Position numbers and translations under genes: made by a program | Shown: positions 5,342 through 43,661 of the stretch, one piece after another | Numbering within the stretch: position 1 is the first letter of the stretch | Layout: each line of letters starts with the position of its first letter | Origin: Pseudorhodoferax sp. Leaf267 | GTDB lineage: Bacteria > Pseudomonadota > Gammaproteobacteria > Burkholderiales > Burkholderiaceae_C | Direction of reading: 5' to 3' | Assembly: GCF_001422405.1 (NCBI RefSeq) | Contig: NZ_LMMV01000021.1 | Span: 372,858-436,857, forward strand | Length of the DNA stretch: 64,000 bases | The notes under the pieces: model-generated | What the model was told of the DNA's origin: nothing | Databases searched by the model: none | The model's input: only the letters and a program-made list of their open reading frames with translations

Positions 5342-6795
5342 CGACGCGCCTTCTCGTCGGCCCCTTCAACCGCGTCGAGGGCGACCTGGAGGTTGCACTC
5401 GACATCGCCGACGGCCGCGTGCGCTCGGCCCGTGTCAACGCCACCATGTACCGCGGTTTCGAGCAGATCCTGAGCGGCAAGGCGCCGCACGACGCGCTGG
5501 TCTATGTGCCGCGCATCTGCGGCATCTGCTCGGTGTCGCAATCGGTGGCGGCGGCCCGTGCGCTGGCCGACTTGGCCGGCATCGCACCGCCGCCCAACGG
5601 CCAGCATGTGACCAACCTCATCCTGGCCACCGAGAACCTGGCTGACCACCTCACGCACTTCTATCTGTTTTTCATGCCGGACTTCATGCGGCCGGTCTAC
5701 GCCAGCCGCCCCTGGCATTCCGAGGCCCAGCGCCGCTTCGACCCACAGACCGGCGAGCACACGCGCCAGGCGATTGCCGCGCGCCAGCGCTGGTTCACGC
5801 TGCTCGGCACGCTGGCCGGCAAGTGGCCGCACACGCAAAGCATCGAGCCGGGCGGCAGCACGCGCGCGGTGGACGCGGCCGAACGCGTGCGCCTGCTGGC
5901 CCGCGTGCGCGCGTTCCGCCGCTTCCTGGAGCAGCAGATGTTTGGCGCGGCGCTCGAGGACGTGGCGGCGCTGGACAGCGAAGGCGCGCTGTGGGCCTGG
6001 CACACGCAGGACTCGCAGCGCGGCGACCTGCGCCTGTTCCTCACCATCGCGCGCGACCTGGAGCTGGAACGGCTGGGCACCGGCCCGGGCCGCTACCTGA
6101 GCTACGGCGCCTACGCCCAGCCCGGCGGCGGCCATGCGCTGGCGGCCGGCGTGTGGCGCGCGGGCGGGGCCCTGAGCGCACCAGACACGCGCTCGATCAC
6201 CGAAGACGCCACCCACGCCTGGCTGGACGACAGCGGCGCGCCGCGCCATCCGTGGCAAGGCCAGACCCGCCCGGACGTGGACAAGCCAGCGGCCTACACC
6301 TGGAACAAGGCGCCCCGGCTGGCCGGCGAGGTGGTGGAGACCGGCGCCATCGCACGGCAGCTGGCATCGCAGCACCCGCTGGTGCTGGACGTGGTGGCGC
6401 GCCATGGCGGCACAGTCTTCACGCGCGTGCTGGCGCGGGCGCTGGAACTGGCCCGCGTGCTGCCGATGATGGAATCGTGGCTGCAGCAACTGAAGGCCGG
6501 CGAGCCCTACTGCGACAGCGCCGTGCTGCCGGACGAAGGCCAGGGCATCGGCCTGTCGGAAGCCGCGCGCGGCGCGCTGGGCCACTGGATCGTGGTGCGC
6601 GGCGGCCGCATCGCCAACTACCAGATCGTCGCGCCCACGAGCTGGAACTTCTCGCCGCGCGACGCGGCCGGCACGCCCGGCGCGCTGGAGATGGCTTTGG
6701 AGAACGCGCCCGTGCAGGATGGGGAGCAGACCCCGGTCTCGGTGCAGCACATCGTGCGTTCGTTCGATCCGTGCATGGTCTGCACGGTGCATTGA
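5338..6795 (+). CDS. hoxC: HoxC, regulatory NiFe hydrogenase large subunit (H2 sensor)
   Basis: This 485-aa large subunit holds the NiFe site. Ligands are visible as RICGIC (Cys61, Cys64) and the C-terminal DPCMVC (Cys479, Cys482). The protein ends only three residues after the last ligand, in His485, so there is no extension for a maturation endopeptidase to cut; this is the hallmark of regulatory hydrogenases such as HoxC/HupV. RICGICSVSQS at motif L1 likewise matches sensors. It is the last gene of the operon; a terminator follows 21 bases later and no hoxJ kinase is present. Confidence 0.94.
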   Translation: MTTRLLVGPFNRVEGDLEVALDIADGRVRSARVNATMYRGFEQILSGKAPHDALVYVPRICGICSVSQSVAAARALADLAGIAPPPNGQHVTNLILATENLADHLTHFYLFFMPDFMRPVYASRPWHSEAQRRFDPQTGEHTRQAIAARQRWFTLLGTLAGKWPHTQSIEPGGSTRAVDAAERVRLLARVRAFRRFLEQQMFGAALEDVAALDSEGALWAWHTQDSQRGDLRLFLTIARDLELERLGTGPGRYLSYGAYAQPGGGHALAAGVWRAGGALSAPDTRSITEDATHAWLDDSGAPRHPWQGQTRPDVDKPAAYTWNKAPRLAGEVVETGAIARQLASQHPLVLDVVARHGGTVFTRVLARALELARVLPMMESWLQQLKAGEPYCDSAVLPDEGQGIGLSEAARGALGHWIVVRGGRIANYQIVAPTSWNFSPRDAAGTPGALEMALENAPVQDGEQTPVSVQHIVRSFDPCMVCTVH

Positions 6796-6987: not shown

Positions 6988-8259
6988 TCAGGCGGCGGCG
7001 GGCTGGTCCAGATCGAAGGCGCGGTGCAGTGCGCGTACGGCCAGTTCCATGTACTTCTCGTCGATCACGACCGAGGTCTTGATCTCGCTGGTGGAGATCA
7101 TCTGGATGTTGATGCCCTCTTCGCTCAGGCAGCGGAACATCTTGCTGGCGATCCCCACATGGCTGCGCATGCCGATGCCCACGATGCTGACCTTGCAGAT
7201 GCGCGCGTCGCCCACCACTTCCTGCGCACCGAGCTTGGGCAGGACCTTCTCCTTGAGCAGGTCCAGCGTCTTGGCGTAGTCGTTGCGGTGCACCGTGAAG
7301 CTGAAGTCGGTCTTGCCGTCCTTGCTCACGTTCTGGATGATGACGTCGACCTCGATGTTGGCGTCGGCGACCGCGCCCAGGATCTGGTACGCGATGCCCG
7401 GGGTGTCCGGCACGCCCAGGACGGAAATCTTGGCTTCGTCGCGGTTGAACGCGATGCCCGACACGATGGCTTGTTCCATTTGCTCGTCTTCCTCGAATGT
7501 GATCAGGGTGCCGGACTTGGACTCTTCGTCCAGGTCGATGTCCCAGGGCGTGAAGCTGGACAGCACGCGCAGCGGCACCTTGTATTTGCCGGCGAATTCC
7601 ACCGAGCGGATCTGCAGCACCTTGGAGCCCATGGAGGCCATCTCCAGCATCTCCTCGAAGCTCACGGTCTGCAGGCGGCGCGCCTCGGGCACCACGCGCG
7701 GGTCGGTGGTGTAGACGCCGTCCACGTCGGTGTAGATCAGGCATTCCTGCGCCTTGAGCGCGGCCGCCACGGCCACGGCCGAGGTGTCGCTGCCGCCACG
7801 GCCCAGCGTGGTGATGTGGCCTTGCTCGTCGATGCCCTGGAAGCCCGTCACGATCACGACGCGGCCGGTGTCCAGGTCGGCGCGCACGCGCTGGTCGTCG
7901 ATGGATTCGATGCGGGCCTTGGTGTAGGCGCTGTTGGTGCGGATCGGCACCTGCCAGCCCGCGTAGCTGACCGACTCCATGCCCTCGGCCTGCAGCGCAA
8001 TCGCCAGAAGTGCCGACGAGGCCTGCTCGCCGGTGGCGGCCAGCATGTCGAGCTCGCGGTGGTAGGCGTCGGCCGCACGCGAAGGCGCCAGCTCTTTGGC
8101 CAGGCCCAGCAGGCGGTTGGTCTCGCCGCTCATGGCGCTGGGCACCACGACCATCTGATGGCCGGCGCGGGCCCACTTGGCGACGCGCTTGGCGACGTTG
8201 CGGATGCGCTCGGTCGAGCCCATCGACGTGCCGCCGTATTTGTGAACGATCAATGCCAT
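6988..8259 (-). CDS. lysC: Aspartate kinase
   Basis: This 423-aa aspartokinase phosphorylates aspartate in the first step of the lysine, threonine and methionine pathway. The kinase domain starts with VHKYGGTSMG and contains TLGRGGSDTSA and IYTDVDGV. Two ACT domains for feedback control occupy about residues 260-410. Length and form fit the monofunctional LysC/Ask of betaproteobacteria. It follows tilS on the same strand after a 57-base gap; tRNA-Ser and a shared terminator lie downstream. Confidence 0.95.
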   Translation of the reverse strand: MALIVHKYGGTSMGSTERIRNVAKRVAKWARAGHQMVVVPSAMSGETNRLLGLAKELAPSRAADAYHRELDMLAATGEQASSALLAIALQAEGMESVSYAGWQVPIRTNSAYTKARIESIDDQRVRADLDTGRVVIVTGFQGIDEQGHITTLGRGGSDTSAVAVAAALKAQECLIYTDVDGVYTTDPRVVPEARRLQTVSFEEMLEMASMGSKVLQIRSVEFAGKYKVPLRVLSSFTPWDIDLDEESKSGTLITFEEDEQMEQAIVSGIAFNRDEAKISVLGVPDTPGIAYQILGAVADANIEVDVIIQNVSKDGKTDFSFTVHRNDYAKTLDLLKEKVLPKLGAQEVVGDARICKVSIVGIGMRSHVGIASKMFRCLSEEGINIQMISTSEIKTSVVIDEKYMELAVRALHRAFDLDQPAAA

Positions 8260-8316
8260 GGAATGGATGGCGCGGCCCCCTCTGACACTGGGTGAAAGCC
8301 CGGGTGACGCGTGCGC

Positions 8317-9282
8317 CTAGGTTGAATCGGAAAGCGCGGGATTGTAGCAATCGAGCACATCGCCACGGCGCCGCACGAAGCGCGCGCCGACCTTGAGCCG
8401 GATGTCGTGCCCGCGCGTGCGGCAGGCCTCCAGCTGGTCCAGCAACTCGTCCAGCTGCGCCGTGCTGGGCGCCGTGGCGTGCACGCTCACGAGCCAATGC
8501 CGCAGCACGTTGGCGCGGCGCGCGCGGGACAGTGCGCGCAGGCCGGCAATGGTCGGTGGCACGCCCAACGCGTGCAAGTCCGTCTCGGCCAGTTCGCGTA
8601 AAAGCGCCTGCCCTTGTGCGGCATGGCCGGCACTGCGCGCGAAGGTGGCGCGGAACGACGGGAAGGCCCGCGCCAGCGTGGGCAGCAGTTGCGCGCGGAT
8701 GCGGTTGCGCGTGAAGGCCGCGTCGGCATTGGTCGGGTCTTCGATCCAGGTGACGCCCTGCTCCGCCAGCCAGGCACGCAGGTCCGGCCCCGGCACGGCC
8801 AGCAGCGGCCGGTGGTAGCGCAGCCCGTCGCGCTCCCACTGCGCCGGCATGGCGGCCAGCCCCGGCAGGCCAGCGCCGCGGCTGAGCGCCAGCAGCATCG
8901 TCTCGACCTGATCATCGGCGTGCTGGGCCAGCGCCACGTCGCGCGGGCCGCCCTGCGCCCAATCGCGCGCGGCCACTTCGGCAATCGCGGCATAGCGCGC
9001 GCGGCGCGCAGCATCCTCGGGGCTCTGGCCACTGGCATGGCGCGCCTGCACATGGGCGACCACCAACGGCACACCCAGCGCAGCACACACGCTACGGCAA
9101 TGGGATTCGAAATCGTCGGCCGCCGCCTGCAGGCCGTGGTGCACATGGACCGCGTGCACCTGGCCGGGCCAGCGCGCCGCGCAGGCGCGCAGCAGAGCCG
9201 TGGAATCGGCGCCACCGCTGTAGGCCACGGCCAGTGGCAATCGGGGCGCGAAGGCCGCGATGGCGGCGGCGAAGCCGCTCAC
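8317..9282 (-). CDS. tilS: tRNA(Ile)-lysidine synthetase TilS
   Basis: TilS converts C34 of tRNA-Ile(CAU) to lysidine so that it reads AUA. The N-terminal PP-loop ATPase motif AYSGGADST lies at residues 20-28, and ALAQHADDQVETMLL is a second conserved motif. At 321 aa it is shorter than the E. coli enzyme (about 430 aa) and has only a short C-terminal region, which is common in this family. It lies 11 bases after scoB and upstream of lysC on the same strand. Confidence 0.93.
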   Translation of the reverse strand: MSGFAAAIAAFAPRLPLAVAYSGGADSTALLRACAARWPGQVHAVHVHHGLQAAADDFESHCRSVCAALGVPLVVAHVQARHASGQSPEDAARRARYAAIAEVAARDWAQGGPRDVALAQHADDQVETMLLALSRGAGLPGLAAMPAQWERDGLRYHRPLLAVPGPDLRAWLAEQGVTWIEDPTNADAAFTRNRIRAQLLPTLARAFPSFRATFARSAGHAAQGQALLRELAETDLHALGVPPTIAGLRALSRARRANVLRHWLVSVHATAPSTAQLDELLDQLEACRTRGHDIRLKVGARFVRRRGDVLDCYNPALSDST

Positions 9283-9293
9283 GGCTTACCCCC

Positions 9294-9929
9294 TCAGATG
9301 AGCTCGACGCCCGTCTTGGACTGCAGCACCTCGCGCGTCACGCCAGGCGCCATCTCCACGACCTTCAGGCCCTGGGGAGTCACGTCCAGCACGGCCAGGT
9401 CGGTGATGATGCGGTCGACCACGGCCACGCCCGTCAGCGGCAGCGTGCACTTGGGCAGGATCTTGAGGTCTTCCGTGCCGTCCTTCTTCTTGGCCACGTG
9501 TTCCATGAGCACGATCACGCGCTTGACGCCGGCCACGAGGTCCATCGCGCCGCCCATGCCCTTGACCATCTTGCCGGGGATCATCCAGTTGGCCAGGTCG
9601 CCTTCGGCGCTGACCTGCATGGCCCCGAGGATGGACAAATTGATCTTGCCGCCACGGATCATCGCGAAGCTGTCGTGGCTGCCGAAGATCGAGCTGCCGG
9701 GCAGCGTCGTCACGGTCTGCTTGCCGGCGTTGATGAGGTCGGCATCGACCTCTTCTTCGGTCGGGAACGGGCCGATGCCCAGCATGCCGTTCTCGCTCTG
9801 CAGCCAGACCTCCTTGTCGCCGGTGTGGTTGGCCACCAGGGTCGGGATGCCGATGCCCAGGTTCACGTAGAAGCCGTCTTCCAGCTCTTGCGCCGCACGT
9901 GCGGCCATCTGGTCTTGGGTCCAGGGCAT
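9294..9929 (-). CDS. scoB: 3-oxoacid CoA-transferase subunit B
   Basis: This 211-aa beta subunit moves CoA between succinyl-CoA and a 3-oxoacid such as acetoacetate. The catalytic Glu lies in [10 protein letters not shown] (Glu46), and [13 protein letters not shown] and [14 protein letters not shown] are family motifs. The ATG was chosen because it lies 2 bases after the scoA stop, the usual subunit order, and because the [13 protein letters not shown] start matches the family. Whether the acceptor is acetoacetate or 3-oxoadipate (PcaJ type) cannot be decided here; no pca genes are nearby. Confidence 0.92.
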
Positions 9930-9931
9930 GT

Positions 9932-10744
9932 TCAGACTCCTGCTTGTTTGTTGACCGGCACCTTGGGCACGGGGACTTCGTCGACGGCGGCGGCCTGCGC
10001 GATCACGGCCTGCGCCTCGACCTTGGCAGCGGCCACATCCACCGGCGCGGCGGCGCGCAGCGTGCGCTTCTCGATGCGCTTTTCGGGCGTGGCGTTCAGA
10101 ACGATGCGGTGCACGTAGATGCCCGGCAGGTGCACGTGGTCCGGGTCGATGTCGCCGGTCTCGACGATCTTCTCGACCTCGACCACGCAGATCTTGCCGG
10201 CCATGGCCGCAGCGGGGTTGAAGTTTCGCGCCGTGCGGCGGAACTGCAGGTTGCCCGACTTGTCGGCGATGTAGGCCTTGACCAGCGCGACCTCGGGCAC
10301 CAGCGAGCGCTCCATCACATAGGTCTCGCCGTCGAACTCGCGCAGCTCCTTGCCCTCGGCCACCTGGGTGCCCACACCGGTCTTGGTGAAGAAGGCCGGG
10401 ATGCCGGCGCCACCGGCGCGCAGTTTCTCGGCCAGCGTGCCCTGGGGCGTGAACTCCAGCTCCAGTTCGCCGGCCAGGTACTGGCGCTCGAATTCCTTGT
10501 TCTCGCCCACGTAGCTGGCGATCATCTTCTTGATCTGGCGCGTCTCCAGCAGCTTGCCCAGGCCGAAGCCGTCGACACCCGCGTTGTTGGAGATGACGGT
10601 CAGGTCCTTGACACCGGAATCCTTCAGCGCCTCGATCAGCGCCTCGGGGATGCCGCACAGGCCGAAGCCGCCCACGGCCATGAGCTGGCCGTCCTTGACG
10701 ATGCCCTTCAACGCCGCATCGGCGGAAGGATAGATTTTGTTCAC
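9932..10744 (-). CDS. scoA: 3-oxoacid CoA-transferase subunit A
   Basis: This 270-aa alpha subunit pairs with scoB. Visible family features are [12 protein letters not shown] near the N-terminus, [12 protein letters not shown] and [20 protein letters not shown] start at 10744 was chosen because GGAG lies six bases upstream and the protein then begins [11 protein letters not shown]; an upstream ATG would need a 10-residue extension through that ribosome site. An unusual Ala/Val-rich tail of about 40 residues extends past the core. A perfect palindrome lies just upstream, between it and the divergent regulator. Confidence 0.92.
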
Positions 10745-19482: not shown

Positions 19483-19529
19483 CTTTTGCGGCACGCCTGG
19501 CGCGCAAGCAAGCTCAGTAGAATGCGCCC

Positions 19530-19716
19530 GGTCAGGAGAGAGCCCTTCTTGCAAGGGCCGCCGAAGGCGCAGGACCCAGCCGTCCAAACGCTCAGGCAAA
19601 AGGACTGACCCAGGTCGTTCGACCTTCCTCACTGGAGAGAGGTCCACCCCGTGTGGATCCACCGAAGGGGCAAACCGCGCAGGCGGCGAATCTCTCAGGT
19701 AAAGCGGACAGCGAGG
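19530..19716 (+). promoter_or_regulatory. Tandem glycine riboswitch upstream of gcvT
   Basis: There are two glycine aptamers in series. Aptamer 1 (about 19530-19610) is closed by GGTCA/TGACC and contains AGGAGAGAG, GCCGAAGGCGCA and CTCAGGCAAAAGGACTG. Aptamer 2 (about 19627-19716) is closed by CCTC/GAGG and contains TGGAGAGAGG, CCACCGAAGGGGCAA and CTCTCAGGTAAAGCGGACAG. These are the conserved core elements of the class. The leader ends about 50 bases before the gcvT start. Glycine binding is expected to turn the glycine cleavage operon on. No clear terminator hairpin lies between aptamer 2 and gcvT, so control may act on translation. Confidence 0.95.
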
Positions 19717-19768
19717 CAGCCCATGGTGCGCGTGCGCCATGCCGTGTATCTGCCTCGAGGAATCCGCC

Positions 19769-20893
19769 ATGTCCACGGACGCTTTGCTCCACACCCCGCT
19801 GCACGCGCTGCACATCGAACTGGGCGCCCGCATGGTGCCCTTCGCCGGCTACAGCATGCCCGTGCAGTACCCCGCCGGCCTCATGGCCGAGCACCTGCAC
19901 ACGCGCGCATCGGCCGGCTTGTTCGATGTCTCGCACATGGGCCAGCTGCAGCTGCGCGGCCCCGAAGCGGCGGCCGCCTTCGAAAGCCTGATCCCGGTCG
20001 ACGTGATAGGCCTGGGCCTGGACAAGCAGCGCTACGGCCTGCTGCTGGACGATGCCGGCGGCATCCTGGACGACCTGATGTTCGTCAACCGCGGCGACCA
20101 TCTGTTCGTGATCGTCAATGGGGCCTGCAAGGTGGCCGACATCGCCCACATCCAGGCCCGCATCGGCACGCGCTGCAACGTGGTGCCACTGCCCGATCAC
20201 GGCCTGCTGGCCCTGCAGGGCCCCAAGGCCGTCAACGCCCTGGCGCGCCTGGTGCCGGGCGTGCCCCGGCTGGTGTTCATGACCGGTGGCGCCTTCGATT
20301 GGGACGGCGCGCCGCTCTATATCACCCGCAGCGGCTACACCGGCGAAGACGGCTTTGAAATATCGGTCCCCGCCAACCGGGCCGAGGCCCTGGCCCGCGC
20401 GCTGCTGGCCCAGCCTGAGGTCCAGCCGATCGGCCTGGGCGCACGCAATTCGCTGCGGCTGGAAGCCGGCCTGTGCCTGTACGGCAACGACATCGACACC
20501 ACCACCAGCCCGGTCGAAGCCGGCCTGAACTGGGCCATGCAGAAGGTGCGGCGCGCCGGCGGCGAGCGCGCGGGCGGCTTCCCGGGCGCCGACAAGGTGC
20601 TGGGCCAGCTGGCCGGCACCACGCCCATCGAACGCAAGCGCGTGGGCTTCATCGCACTGGAGCGCGTGCCCGTGCGCGAGCACACGGCTGTGCAATCCAC
20701 CGACGGCCAGGCCATCGGCGAAGTGACGAGTGGCCTGCTCGGCCCCAGCGTGGACAAGCCCATCGCCATGGCCTATGTCCGCACGGCGTTTGCTTCACCC
20801 GGCACACGCGTGCACGCCATGGTGCGCGGCAAGGCCGTGCCCATGGAGGTGAGCCCCATGCCTTTCCTGCCGCCGCGTTACCACCGCGGCTGA
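19769..20893 (+). CDS. gcvT: Glycine cleavage system T protein (aminomethyltransferase)
   Basis: This 374-aa T protein releases ammonia from the aminomethyl group on lipoyl-GcvH and transfers the carbon to tetrahydrofolate. Motifs include [21 protein letters not shown] near residue 50 and [12 protein letters not shown], all standard for GcvT. The ATG giving [12 protein letters not shown] was chosen because GAGGA lies seven bases upstream and an earlier in-frame ATG sits close to the riboswitch. First gene of gcvT-gcvH-gcvP, under glycine riboswitch control. Confidence 0.95.
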
Positions 20894-40507: not shown

Positions 40508-41734
40508 TCACGCAGCAGTGAGCCCATCGAACACATCCAGCGTGGGAAATGCGGCACGGCCGCGAAGGCAGTCCCAGAGAAAGATGGCAAATCCAGGGTC
40601 GCCGGTCCACAGTGAGTAACGCATCTTGCCGTACTTCTGCGTCAGCGCTTCTGTCTGCGCGATTCCGTGCACAGCGAAGGCCCGCGCGCGCTGCAGCCAT
40701 ATCGCGTCGCGCGTTCTGGCATAGAGCTTCAGGAAAGCATAGCCATTGCCGCCTGTGCCGTGGCACAGGTTAGAGCCCTTCGTCAGCGGACCTGCCGCCC
40801 AGACCGCATCTCCAGCTGCGATGAGTACGTCATCCAGCGCATGGCCAGGCATGTCGGCCAGGCAGATCAAAAATCCCGGAGCGCCGTGGCAATACTGCAT
40901 GAGCAATGGTTTTCCGGGCAAGGAAGTGAGCCGTGCGCGCCAGTTGGCTTGCCCCCCCTCCCAGGTCGCGGTGCGCAACACGGTGTTCTCGATGCACCCT
41001 TGCCACGCGGCCCAGTCCGCTTCGGCTAGCAAGGCCCGGCCGCGAATCAGCGGCAATGCCGTGCCAACAAAGCCGTGGACGGCATCGATGTAGGTGGACT
41101 GGCTGCCATACAGATCCTGGGTCCAGTAGTGGCAGGAAAACTCCTCGGACCACAACAATTACGACCACAGCAAGGCCGCGGTGCCGCGAAAGAGTTCCGC
41201 CCAGCGTTCATCGCCGGTGCGTCGGTGCAGGAAGTGTGCGGCGAGCAGAGAGCCGGGCGAGCCCCCCATCAGTTCACGAGCCGGGTGCTCCATGTTGCCC
41301 GCGATCAACGCGGCCAGTCGATTGGCGGTCGCAGGCCGCTGCTGTGTAGCGAATTCGAGCAGGCGAATGGGGAGTTCGCCCATCATGAAAGATCCGGCGT
41401 ACGCGGCTGCTCGCTCGCCCAGCCATGTGTCGTTGCGCGCCATCAGCTCGGCCAACGAAGCGGCATCCCGGTAGTTGCGCTGTAGCCGTACCGCGCCAAC
41501 GTCTTGCAGATAGTGCAACGCCCATACCACGCCGCAGGCACCGAAATACAGTGGTGTGAGGGGCGTTCGTGGCCCGTCGCCGGGATCCACGTCATGCGGG
41601 TGCGGCGGCCACCAGCCCTGCGGCGTGAACCTGGATTCTGCGTCGGCAGTGATCCGCTCGATGCAGGCGCGCACCTTGGCTTCGTCCCATCGCAGGTGCT
41701 GAAGCGCTTCGTGACGCGCGGGTTCAAACAACAT
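40508..41734 (-). pseudogene. LanC-like protein gene interrupted by an in-frame TAA
   Basis: Two open segments in the same frame, 41734-41159 (191 codons) and 41158-40508 (216 codons), together give a LanC/LANCL-like protein of about 407 aa, the usual family length. The first ends ALLWS-stop and the second resumes LLWSEEF directly after the TAA (41159-41161). The repeated LLWS suggests that a short imperfect duplication brought in the stop. All metal-ligand motifs (QYCHGAPG; LCHGTGGN) are in the second part, and glycine-rich barrel repeats (YFGACG, GGSPGS) are in the first. Either the gene is dead, the stop is read through, or the base calls are wrong. No lantibiotic precursor or dehydratase is nearby. 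Confidence 0.75.
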
Positions 41735-42587: not shown

Positions 42588-43661
42588 TCAACCCGCCATT
42601 GCCTCGTGCACCAGCCGCATGAGCTCGGTCGGCACGACGGCCTCGCCCAACGCACCGGCCGCCGTGCAGCGCGCCGCCACGGCAGCGCGGCGCTCGGGGC
42701 GGAACTCGCCGTGGTAGACCACCACGGGCATGGTGTGGCGCTCGGCGCGCAGCGCCTGCAAGAGCGTGAGTGCCGCAGGTTCAGCGTCGTCGGCACGCGA
42801 CCAGTCGGTCAGCACCAGGTCGAAGCGCTCGCCGGCGGCCGCATCTGCATCGATGCGCGCCATCGCCTCGGCAGTCGAACGCACGGCCACGACCTCGATC
42901 TGCAGCTTGGCCAGCACCGCCATCTCGCCGCGGTTGTTGTCGGGCCGGTCGTCGACCCACAGCACGCGCTTGGCGTCGCGCACATCGATCAATGCGCGCG
43001 TCTCTTCGGCCAACTGCGGGCGCAGGGCCTGGTCGACGGCGTGGCCGCTGCGCGATCGCTCGGCCGTGTCGATCTGCTGCACGACGCCAGCCACGACCTC
43101 GTCGAGCAGACCATCGGCCTGCACTGCCCCTGCCTGGGCCGGCCCGCGGCGCCTCCGCGGGGCGGGCGCGGACACCGCGGCCGGCGGGCGCCGCCCACGG
43201 ATCCATTCGACCGTCACGCGCAGACCCTTGGCGACATTGGTCCAGGCTTCGTCCTGGCTGGCCCAGGAAGCGACCGGCTTCAGATCGGTCGGCAGGCCCT
43301 GCAGGTGCATGAACGGCGCGCCCTCCAGATCCACCGCCCGCACCACGATTGGCACGGCCACGCAGGACTGCTGCGCATGCCGCTCCAACGCGCGCTTGAG
43401 CTCCACGCCGAAGATGTAGTCGCTGTTCATGAAGTCGGCGCTGACGAGCAGCAGCACCAGCTCGGCGCTCTCCAGGCTTTCGTCGATGGCCTGCGCCCAT
43501 TCCTGTCCGGGCCTGATCTGGCGGTCATGCCAGGGGCGGATGAGGCCCTTGCGCTCCAGCAGCTTCAAATGCTTTTCGAGCTCCTTGCGCAGCACCTCGT
43601 CCTCATGCGCGTAGCTGTAGAACAGGGTCACCGGGCGGGTATCGGGTTCGGGCACGTTCAC
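42588..43661 (-). CDS. TIR domain - receiver-like domain fusion protein
   Basis: This 357-aa soluble protein starts with a bacterial TIR domain (residues ~10-150). It shows LFYSYAHED (13-21), WHDR at 44-47, a helix ending in SADF and the putative catalytic Glu87 in SDYIFGVELKRAL, the position needed for NAD-cleaving activity in TIR enzymes. After an Arg/Pro-rich linker (157-180) comes a receiver-like domain from ~230: RVLWVDDRP (Asp237, Asp238) and VLTDWS (Asp286, the phospho-acceptor position). The usual Thr/Ser and Lys of receivers are not evident (VVVYHGE, then GEAVVP), so it is a divergent or pseudo-receiver. Such a pairing would couple an immune-type effector to a signalling input. It lies downstream of a phytochrome/hybrid kinase block on the same strand. 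Confidence 0.85.
   Translation of the reverse strand: MNVPEPDTRPVTLFYSYAHEDEVLRKELEKHLKLLERKGLIRPWHDRQIRPGQEWAQAIDESLESAELVLLLVSADFMNSDYIFGVELKRALERHAQQSCVAVPIVVRAVDLEGAPFMHLQGLPTDLKPVASWASQDEAWTNVAKGLRVTVEWIRGRRPPAAVSAPAPRRRRGPAQAGAVQADGLLDEVVAGVVQQIDTAERSRSGHAVDQALRPQLAEETRALIDVRDAKRVLWVDDRPDNNRGEMAVLAKLQIEVVAVRSTAEAMARIDADAAAGERFDLVLTDWSRADDAEPAALTLLQALRAERHTMPVVVYHGEFRPERRAAVAARCTAAGALGEAVVPTELMRLVHEAMAG

Follow-up and report, generated by a model that had tools for sequence, protein, structure and literature searches.

What does a bacterial TIR domain do when it is fused to a receiver-like domain, and what controls it? TIR enzymes of bacteria either produce immune messengers or consume NAD+, and to our knowledge it is understood in only a few cases how they are held off. 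The question is raised here by a gene at 42588..43661 on the minus strand of the window (the whole 64-kb stretch of DNA analysed), which starts with GTG and encodes a TIR-pseudoreceiver protein of 357 residues. A preliminary description, in which the strand was unstated, had placed an immune-type NADase or signalling domain under phosphorelay-like control. The open reading frame proved to be a real gene: its GC content by codon position is 0.76/0.46/0.88, a pattern also seen in the neighbouring kinase genes, and the overlapping plus-strand open reading frame is only its mirror image.

Domain architecture and key residues

The N-terminal part of the protein (residues 10-157; 43191..43634, minus strand) comprises a TIR domain with a C-terminal helical extension. 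Pfam TIR_2 matches residues 14-112 above its cut-off (E 5.3e-14) and the PADLOC ThsB-type model PDLC00420 matches residues 12-175 (E 4.6e-52); despite the latter, Pfam ThsB_TIR (PF08937) was absent from the protein's matches at E 0.1. A model of the TIR domain alone (pLDDT 92.0) found 27 solved structures at E ≤0.001, with plant and animal TIRs, AbTir, SPARTA and Cat1 among them, and matched AbTir 7uwg (E 1.8e-4) as well as 7uxu (E 1.1e-3, TM 0.76 over the target). Cat1 and AbTir also came first when a TIR profile was searched against solved structures. This profile aligned Glu87 (codon 43401..43403, minus strand), invariant in all 19 aligned full-length proteins including the window's, with the glutamate of the 'EL' motif in both proteins; the alignment crosses a one-residue gap, the spacing of the aromatic and the glutamate being one residue longer in the window's TIR. 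We take the glutamate of the AbTir and Cat1 motif to be catalytic. A predicted TIR fold with a glutamate at this putative catalytic position makes the domain a candidate NADase, and the earlier placing of Glu87 at the position used by NAD-cleaving TIR enzymes agrees with both its alignment and its invariance.

A variable linker follows (42978..43190, minus strand), in which AlphaFold2 predicts two helices (residues 184-205 and 211-225) ahead of the receiver fold. The receiver-like domain itself occupies residues 231-356 (42594..42971, minus strand). Its Pfam Response_reg match (residues 233-321, E 1.8e-4, 22.1 bits) is below the cut-off of 30.2, and the domain alone scores 25 bits against Response_reg (PF00072), again short of the gathering cut-off of 30.2. 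Structure prediction, which the preliminary description had proposed for residues 225-357, returned a receiver fold: the AlphaFold2 model, built on a 19-sequence alignment (mean pLDDT 89.2, pTM 0.80), predicts the five beta-alpha units of a (beta/alpha)5 domain from residue 232 to 356, and its best Foldseek match is the receiver 3hdv (TM 0.81 over the target). The whole model matched 98 chains at E ≤0.001, receivers making up most of the 50 shown. A profile search of solved structures with the receiver family placed artificial PPR proteins at the top, which were set aside, and receivers next. The joining of a TIR domain to a receiver fold is thereby confirmed.

Conservation was counted over 85 receiver-like domains: the window's, the best 80 of the 109 relatives that a genome-wide search with the receiver portion returned, L101 as one of four viral loci, and, from further genome loci, L107, L108 and L110; L106, L109, L111 and L133 were left out of the count although they score well. 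The acidic residues expected of a receiver lie where they had been described. The pair Asp237-Asp238 (42948..42953, minus strand) is kept in 85/85 and 84/85 domains respectively, Asp286 (42804..42806, minus strand), at the phospho-acceptor position, in 83/85, all three together in 82/85, Arg289 in 84/85 and Tyr316 in 83/85; WVDD and the proline after it were part of one search pattern, so that their conservation is partly built in, and Asp286, Arg289 and Tyr316 stood outside the patterns. Among the 19 full-length TIR-receivers, Asp237 and Asp286 are invariant and Asp238 is replaced by Asn in one.

The usual Thr/Ser and Lys had been reported missing, and both are indeed lost in all 20 receivers of the window's clade. 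The Thr/Ser switch position is occupied by His317 (42711..42713, minus strand), with His in 19 of the 20 TIR-receivers of the window's type and Cys in one (18 and one of the 19 full-length proteins). Val343 (42633..42635, minus strand) lies near the position of the switch Lys, and all 20 of these receivers are free of Lys over the columns corresponding to residues 336-348. As controls, six further receivers encoded in the window were chosen; each has Thr or Ser in that column and a Lys in the loop. Across the 85 domains, Thr or Ser is found at the Thr site in 29, Lys at the Lys site in 3 and the full set of five canonical residues in 2. The protein thus fits the definition of a pseudo-receiver given in passages of PMC12632262, namely a receiver fold lacking key residues needed for phosphotransfer; it differs in that about 80% of the pseudo-receivers described there are non-acidic at the second acidic position, whereas the family of the TIR-receiver keeps an acidic residue in 84/85.

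Relatives, recurrence and selection

A search for the same domain pair, as the preliminary description had suggested, returned 18 further full-length proteins of the same layout (19 with the window's), which align end to end; L025 and L037 end at contig ends and were left out of this alignment. Four same-layout relatives belong to the window's family and order. The 85 receiver-like domains comprise 20 with the window's TIR type (L025 being cut), nine with other TIR types (TIR_2 by Pfam in all nine), 19 with a DNA-binding, Trans_reg_C-like start assigned by motif (four were tested with Pfam, all positive), 36 others, of which many seem by eye to begin with a membrane segment, and one cut. L110, placed among the others, is Trans_reg_C-positive by Pfam. 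Of the 84 relatives examined, 28 pair a TIR domain with the receiver-like domain: 19 have the window's TIR type (one being cut) and nine have other types. By eye, five TIR types are joined to this family.

In the tree, built without L037, L050 and L063, the 20 receivers of the window's TIR type form one group (98/87) and the other TIR-fused receivers lie elsewhere. A single clade for all TIR-fused receivers was rejected (AU p 0.011) and one for the nine fusions of other TIR types was not (AU p 0.085), in a clade test run without nine rows; the AU test presumes groups named before the tree was seen, and here TIR type and layout defined the groups, but the test followed the tree. Rejection of one origin indicates, as far as the sequences allow, that the pairing arose at least twice. 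The earlier view of the pairing as unusual therefore needs correcting.

Selection was gauged from 21 Thauera pairs. The receiver gave dN/dS values of 0.18-0.40, the linker 0.37-1.05 and the TIR domain 0.06-0.26, this last without L026/L028, a near-identical pair whose TIR domains show 0 residue changes; many Nitrospira pairs were saturated. These low Thauera values show that purifying selection keeps both the TIR and the receiver domain. The TIR-receiver is a real, recurrent and selected architecture.

The receiver-like domain also occurs in other company. CadC-like proteins (L064, L070, L080, L094, L110 and others; five tested with Pfam) combine Trans_reg_C with the same domain, and in this class, as assigned by motif and found mainly in Shewanella, Ferrimonas and Rheinheimera, Thr stands at the switch position in 19/19. 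In 4 of 56 family members (for example L098, residues 146-212) the receiver-like domain is hit by the PADLOC model of SduA (Shedu), at best with E 3.7e-5, and some SduA proteins may carry such a domain at the N-terminus. Four contigs of a viral collection (L101-L104) encode a receiver-like relative, that of L101 being membrane-anchored as judged by eye. L053 encodes, at 7154-10705, a protein of 1,183 residues in which Pfam at E 0.01 recognises nothing but a receiver-like domain, close to the C-terminus.

Genomic neighbourhoods and partner genes

The window's copy is solitary: the queries also used on the loci of its relatives found no conflict gene in the 64-kb window. mntP faces the gene in convergent orientation, and upstream of the gene on the same strand lie three kinases and a receiver protein, in keeping with the kinases of the preliminary description; the nearest, a hybrid kinase gene, is about 700 bp away, with a 101-residue open reading frame in between. 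A scan for promoters and terminators was uninformative, giving one promoter-like site and no terminators. The genome has nine TIR_2 matches, the TIR-receiver included. An origin from phage or plasmid was considered and rejected, the gene having no match in the phage collection and its 35 matching plasmid records all being confined to residues 2-154, the TIR part only; its GC content, similar to that of the surroundings, argues against both.

Elsewhere in the window, a LanC-like gene at 40508-41734 (minus strand) is interrupted by a TAA stop in frame and so falls into two open reading frames, 41159-41734 and 40508-41158, the LANC_like match lying only in the second. A tandem glycine riboswitch at 19523-19721 (plus strand) precedes a gene at 19769, which we take to resemble gcvT.

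Twenty loci (L021-L039 and L044) from relatives sharing the window's TIR type were read with flanks of up to 10 kb, shorter at contig ends; L037, whose contig ends before the TIR domain, is counted among these loci and among the 21 genomes discussed below. Conflict-type genes stand beside the TIR gene in five of the 20. In three, these are a caspase and/or a large CHAT/TPR-S protein. In the Rhizobacter locus (L021) a caspase gene, the TIR-receiver and a 1,853-residue DUF7379, CHAT and TPR-S protein follow one another, with gaps of 13 bp upstream and 57 bp downstream of the TIR-receiver by gene calls made here; the order is caspase, CHAT/TPR-S, TIR-receiver in a Nitrospira (L030) and TIR-receiver, CHAT/TPR-S in Caenimonas (L036). 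The other two, both Nitrospirota (L029 and L031), have the order TPR-S protein, patatin, TIR-receiver, DUF4062, and L029 additionally has SIR2-TIR and WD40 genes. DUF4062 is described as a TIR-like antiphage NADase in passages of a preprint (PMC13174449). At L039 there is only a weak caspase match (E 1e-8), 4.6 kb from the TIR gene, and the remaining 14 of the 20 loci hold none of the searched conflict genes within the fetched flanks by the queries used. Six Thauera copies share a common neighbourhood of housekeeping appearance, whose genes are presumably htpX, fmt and def, by sequence likeness.

Kinases were sought in the flanks of loci L021-L104 (L108 lying outside) by tblastn at E 1e-6 with three kinase domains of the window. 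Among the 20 loci of the window's type, L044 alone gave a histidine kinase, at a distance of about 4-5 kb; for the other TIR types, L046 and L057 did so among the eight loci examined out of nine. A conserved partner histidine kinase, such as a response regulator would have, was thus not seen by a search that detects likeness to the three window kinases only. The preliminary description had pointed to the neighbours of homologues for kinases or defence systems; defence-type genes stand beside the TIR gene at 5/20 loci, and a kinase was detected at 1/20.

Partner genes occur more widely at the level of the genome. TPR-S was found in 20 of the 21 genomes with the window's receiver type, 19 of them over the cut-off (19/20 without the genome of L037). 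The CHAT/TPR-S protein was present at E 1e-15 in 18/21 (17/20 without that genome), being missing in G1009, G1014 and G1020. Among 200 control genomes of the window's family, 31 have the protein, the window's own genome and one other TIR-receiver genome among them; without the control's three TIR-receiver genomes the count is 29/197. Fisher's test by genome gives 4e-11 for the co-occurrence and a rough count by lineage, 10/12 (that of L037 included) against 23/139 genera, gives 4e-6, both values being optimistic given related genomes, a control family without Thauera and Nitrospira, and a shorter control query. Conversely, 29 of the 31 control genomes with a CHAT/TPR-S protein have no full TIR-receiver at E 1e-20.

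The effector genes adjoin the TIR gene in L021, L030 and L036; in the window's genome they lie apart from it, on contigs C1 and C21. On C1, a caspase and a 2,030-residue CHAT protein form a pair, TPR-S being undetected in the latter at E 0.001. On C21, the window's own contig, convergent patatin and TPR-S genes lie just past the window's end, at about 439101-443195 (5102-9196 of L191; genome G000), some 22-27 kb from the TIR-receiver gene; for a single gene such closeness has a coincidence of about 0.8%, and it was noticed after the fact. The N-terminus of TPR-S proteins, which we take to be deoxyribosyltransferase-like, gave a weak PADLOC match to a TIR effector model.

In 21 hand-chosen CHAT/TPR-S loci, some of which end early at contig ends, a TIR-receiver was found in 3, a caspase in 8 and a TIR or TPR-S-type neighbour protein in 10; none of TIR, separate TPR-S protein and caspase was found in 8. 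In two of them (L196, L197) the CHAT/TPR-S gene is followed by a different TIR protein; in L198 its neighbour is a TPR-S protein, and in L195 such a protein lies beyond the caspase gene. With different TIR or TPR-S proteins near this gene elsewhere, the TIR-receiver appears to be one of a number of NAD-acting parts that can replace one another. A separate observation concerns L205, from a Nitrospira that also carries a TIR-receiver (L029): a pYEATS-TIR fusion at 5879-6670 is flanked by TPR-S/patatin genes and a CHAT/TPR-S gene.

Known systems, function and control

The protein resembles Thoeris in a possibly ThsB-type TIR, so assigned by PADLOC, and in the caspase near two of its relatives (L021 and L030). 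It differs in its fused pseudo-receiver, in having no effector gene adjoining and no Pfam ThsB_TIR match, and in the CHAT and TPR-S domains of the large neighbour protein in relatives. By neighbourhood we therefore rejected Thoeris, the neighbours being mntP, the 101-residue open reading frame and kinases, with no adjacent ThsA or other effector. A STALD search of the window's genome gave no match; a control query likewise gave none, which makes the search uninformative on absence.

TPR-S/CHAT/caspase conflict systems are a further likeness in that neighbour or partner genes carry these domains; unlike them, the window's copy is solitary, and only 5/20 relatives adjoin such genes or TPR-S/patatin genes. 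Systems of this type are said to have been surveyed by Burroughs and Aravind in 2020, in a paper whose abstract reportedly mentions a receiver-related nucleotide sensor and, for NAD+-derived signals, a TPR scaffold. The idea behind the present finding is thus probably partly in print already. Passages of PMC8195603, which cites that survey, place receivers lacking kinases in conflict systems and propose that they act as switches responsive to nucleotides, and passages of PMC7159879 describe receivers as sporadic among effectors, with histidine kinases absent. The TIR-receiver shares with these a receiver without a kinase in an immune-type context, and differs in its cis fusion to TIR and in keeping the acidic triad while losing Thr and Lys. 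The cREC cyclic-phosphate-processing receiver, as presented in parts of PMC7824862 and PMC9503650, is likewise divergent and tied to NAD+/ADP-ribose enzymes, not kinases. Membership of cREC (PF20274) was rejected, the window protein having no cREC_REC match at E 0.1; 4 of 56 family members have weak matches at E ≤0.01, the best 0.001.

Taken together, our findings lead us to favour a TIR NADase or messenger-maker that acts in an abortive-infection network of TPR-S/CHAT/caspase type and is gated by its fused pseudo-receiver, a reading to which we give an even chance. Phage or another stress would release the TIR domain or cause it to oligomerise; the TIR would then cleave NAD+, yielding an ADP-ribose-derived signal and/or depleting NAD+. 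Such a signal would be read by TPR-S proteins elsewhere in the cell, which would switch on CHAT/caspase-type proteases or a lipase and so bring about abortive infection. The pseudo-receiver would serve as the gate through ligand or metal binding or protein contact, with no histidine-kinase phosphorelay. There is precedent in type IV Thoeris, where, according to passages of PMC12847820, TIR-made N7-cADPR activates a caspase-like protease. Against this reading count the solitary state of the window's copy, the 14 of 20 relatives' loci with none of the searched conflict genes, the housekeeping look of the surroundings shared by six Thauera copies, and the 29 control genomes that carry the CHAT/TPR-S protein but gave no full TIR-receiver. 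The immune-type NADase or signalling role proposed earlier is plausible from the sequence, and a defence role is likely, with NAD cleavage, messenger production and antiphage action as its presumed elements.

A simpler protein that needs no partner seems rather unlikely to us. Here the phage-triggered TIR would deplete NAD+ alone, the receiver being its sensor or autoinhibitor, as would suit the window's copy and the 14 of 20 relatives that lack the searched conflict genes nearby; a single-protein TIR NADase defence, SpbK, is known from passages of PMC12847820. Against it stand the caspase/CHAT/TPR-S or patatin genes co-located in five loci and the partner present in 18/21 genomes.

It is tempting to speculate that the pseudo-receiver binds ADP-ribose or a nucleotide, or cleaves a cyclic phosphate in the manner of cREC, so that the enzyme would sense or remove its own product; the protein would then be a self-limiting immune messenger synthase whose gate was recruited from a receiver family at least twice. 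We consider this improbable.

Control by phosphorelay, in which the nearby phytochrome or hybrid kinases would phosphorylate Asp286 and so govern the TIR, is very unlikely. The receiver fold, the acidic triad in 82/85 family members, the three kinases and receiver protein upstream on the same strand and the kinases flanking two of eight loci of other TIR types all speak for it. Yet Thr and Lys are each lost in 20/20, whereas the six control receivers of the window keep both, a kinase was detected in the fetched flanks of just one of 20 relatives of the window's type, and the nearest kinase gene here is about 700 bp away. The phosphorelay-like control of the preliminary description is thus unsupported, and with the switch residues lost and kinases at 1/20 loci the phytochrome and kinase neighbours are probably incidental. 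Weak phosphorylation is possible, Asp286 being retained. The protein is more likely to be a gated part of a suicide-type defence than to stand at the end of a phosphorelay that senses light.

Scaffolding is the role of many TIR domains, and the extra residue between the aromatic and the glutamate relative to AbTir and Cat1 would suit a catalytically dead, oligomerising adaptor with the pseudo-receiver as interaction surface, but the invariance of Glu87 (19/19) and purifying selection on the TIR make this highly doubtful.

In the literature searched, a TIR-receiver fusion is named in no title or abstract opening; most subscription journals fall outside that literature, and novelty is unproven. 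The working of pseudo-receivers is called a mystery in passages of a 2025 review (PMC12632262). A receiver-derived gate acting in cis across several TIR types would offer a compact test case for pseudo-receiver function. Furthermore, its near-invariant residues, namely the Asp triad, Arg289 and Tyr316, with His317 in the window's clade, allow direct mutational tests.
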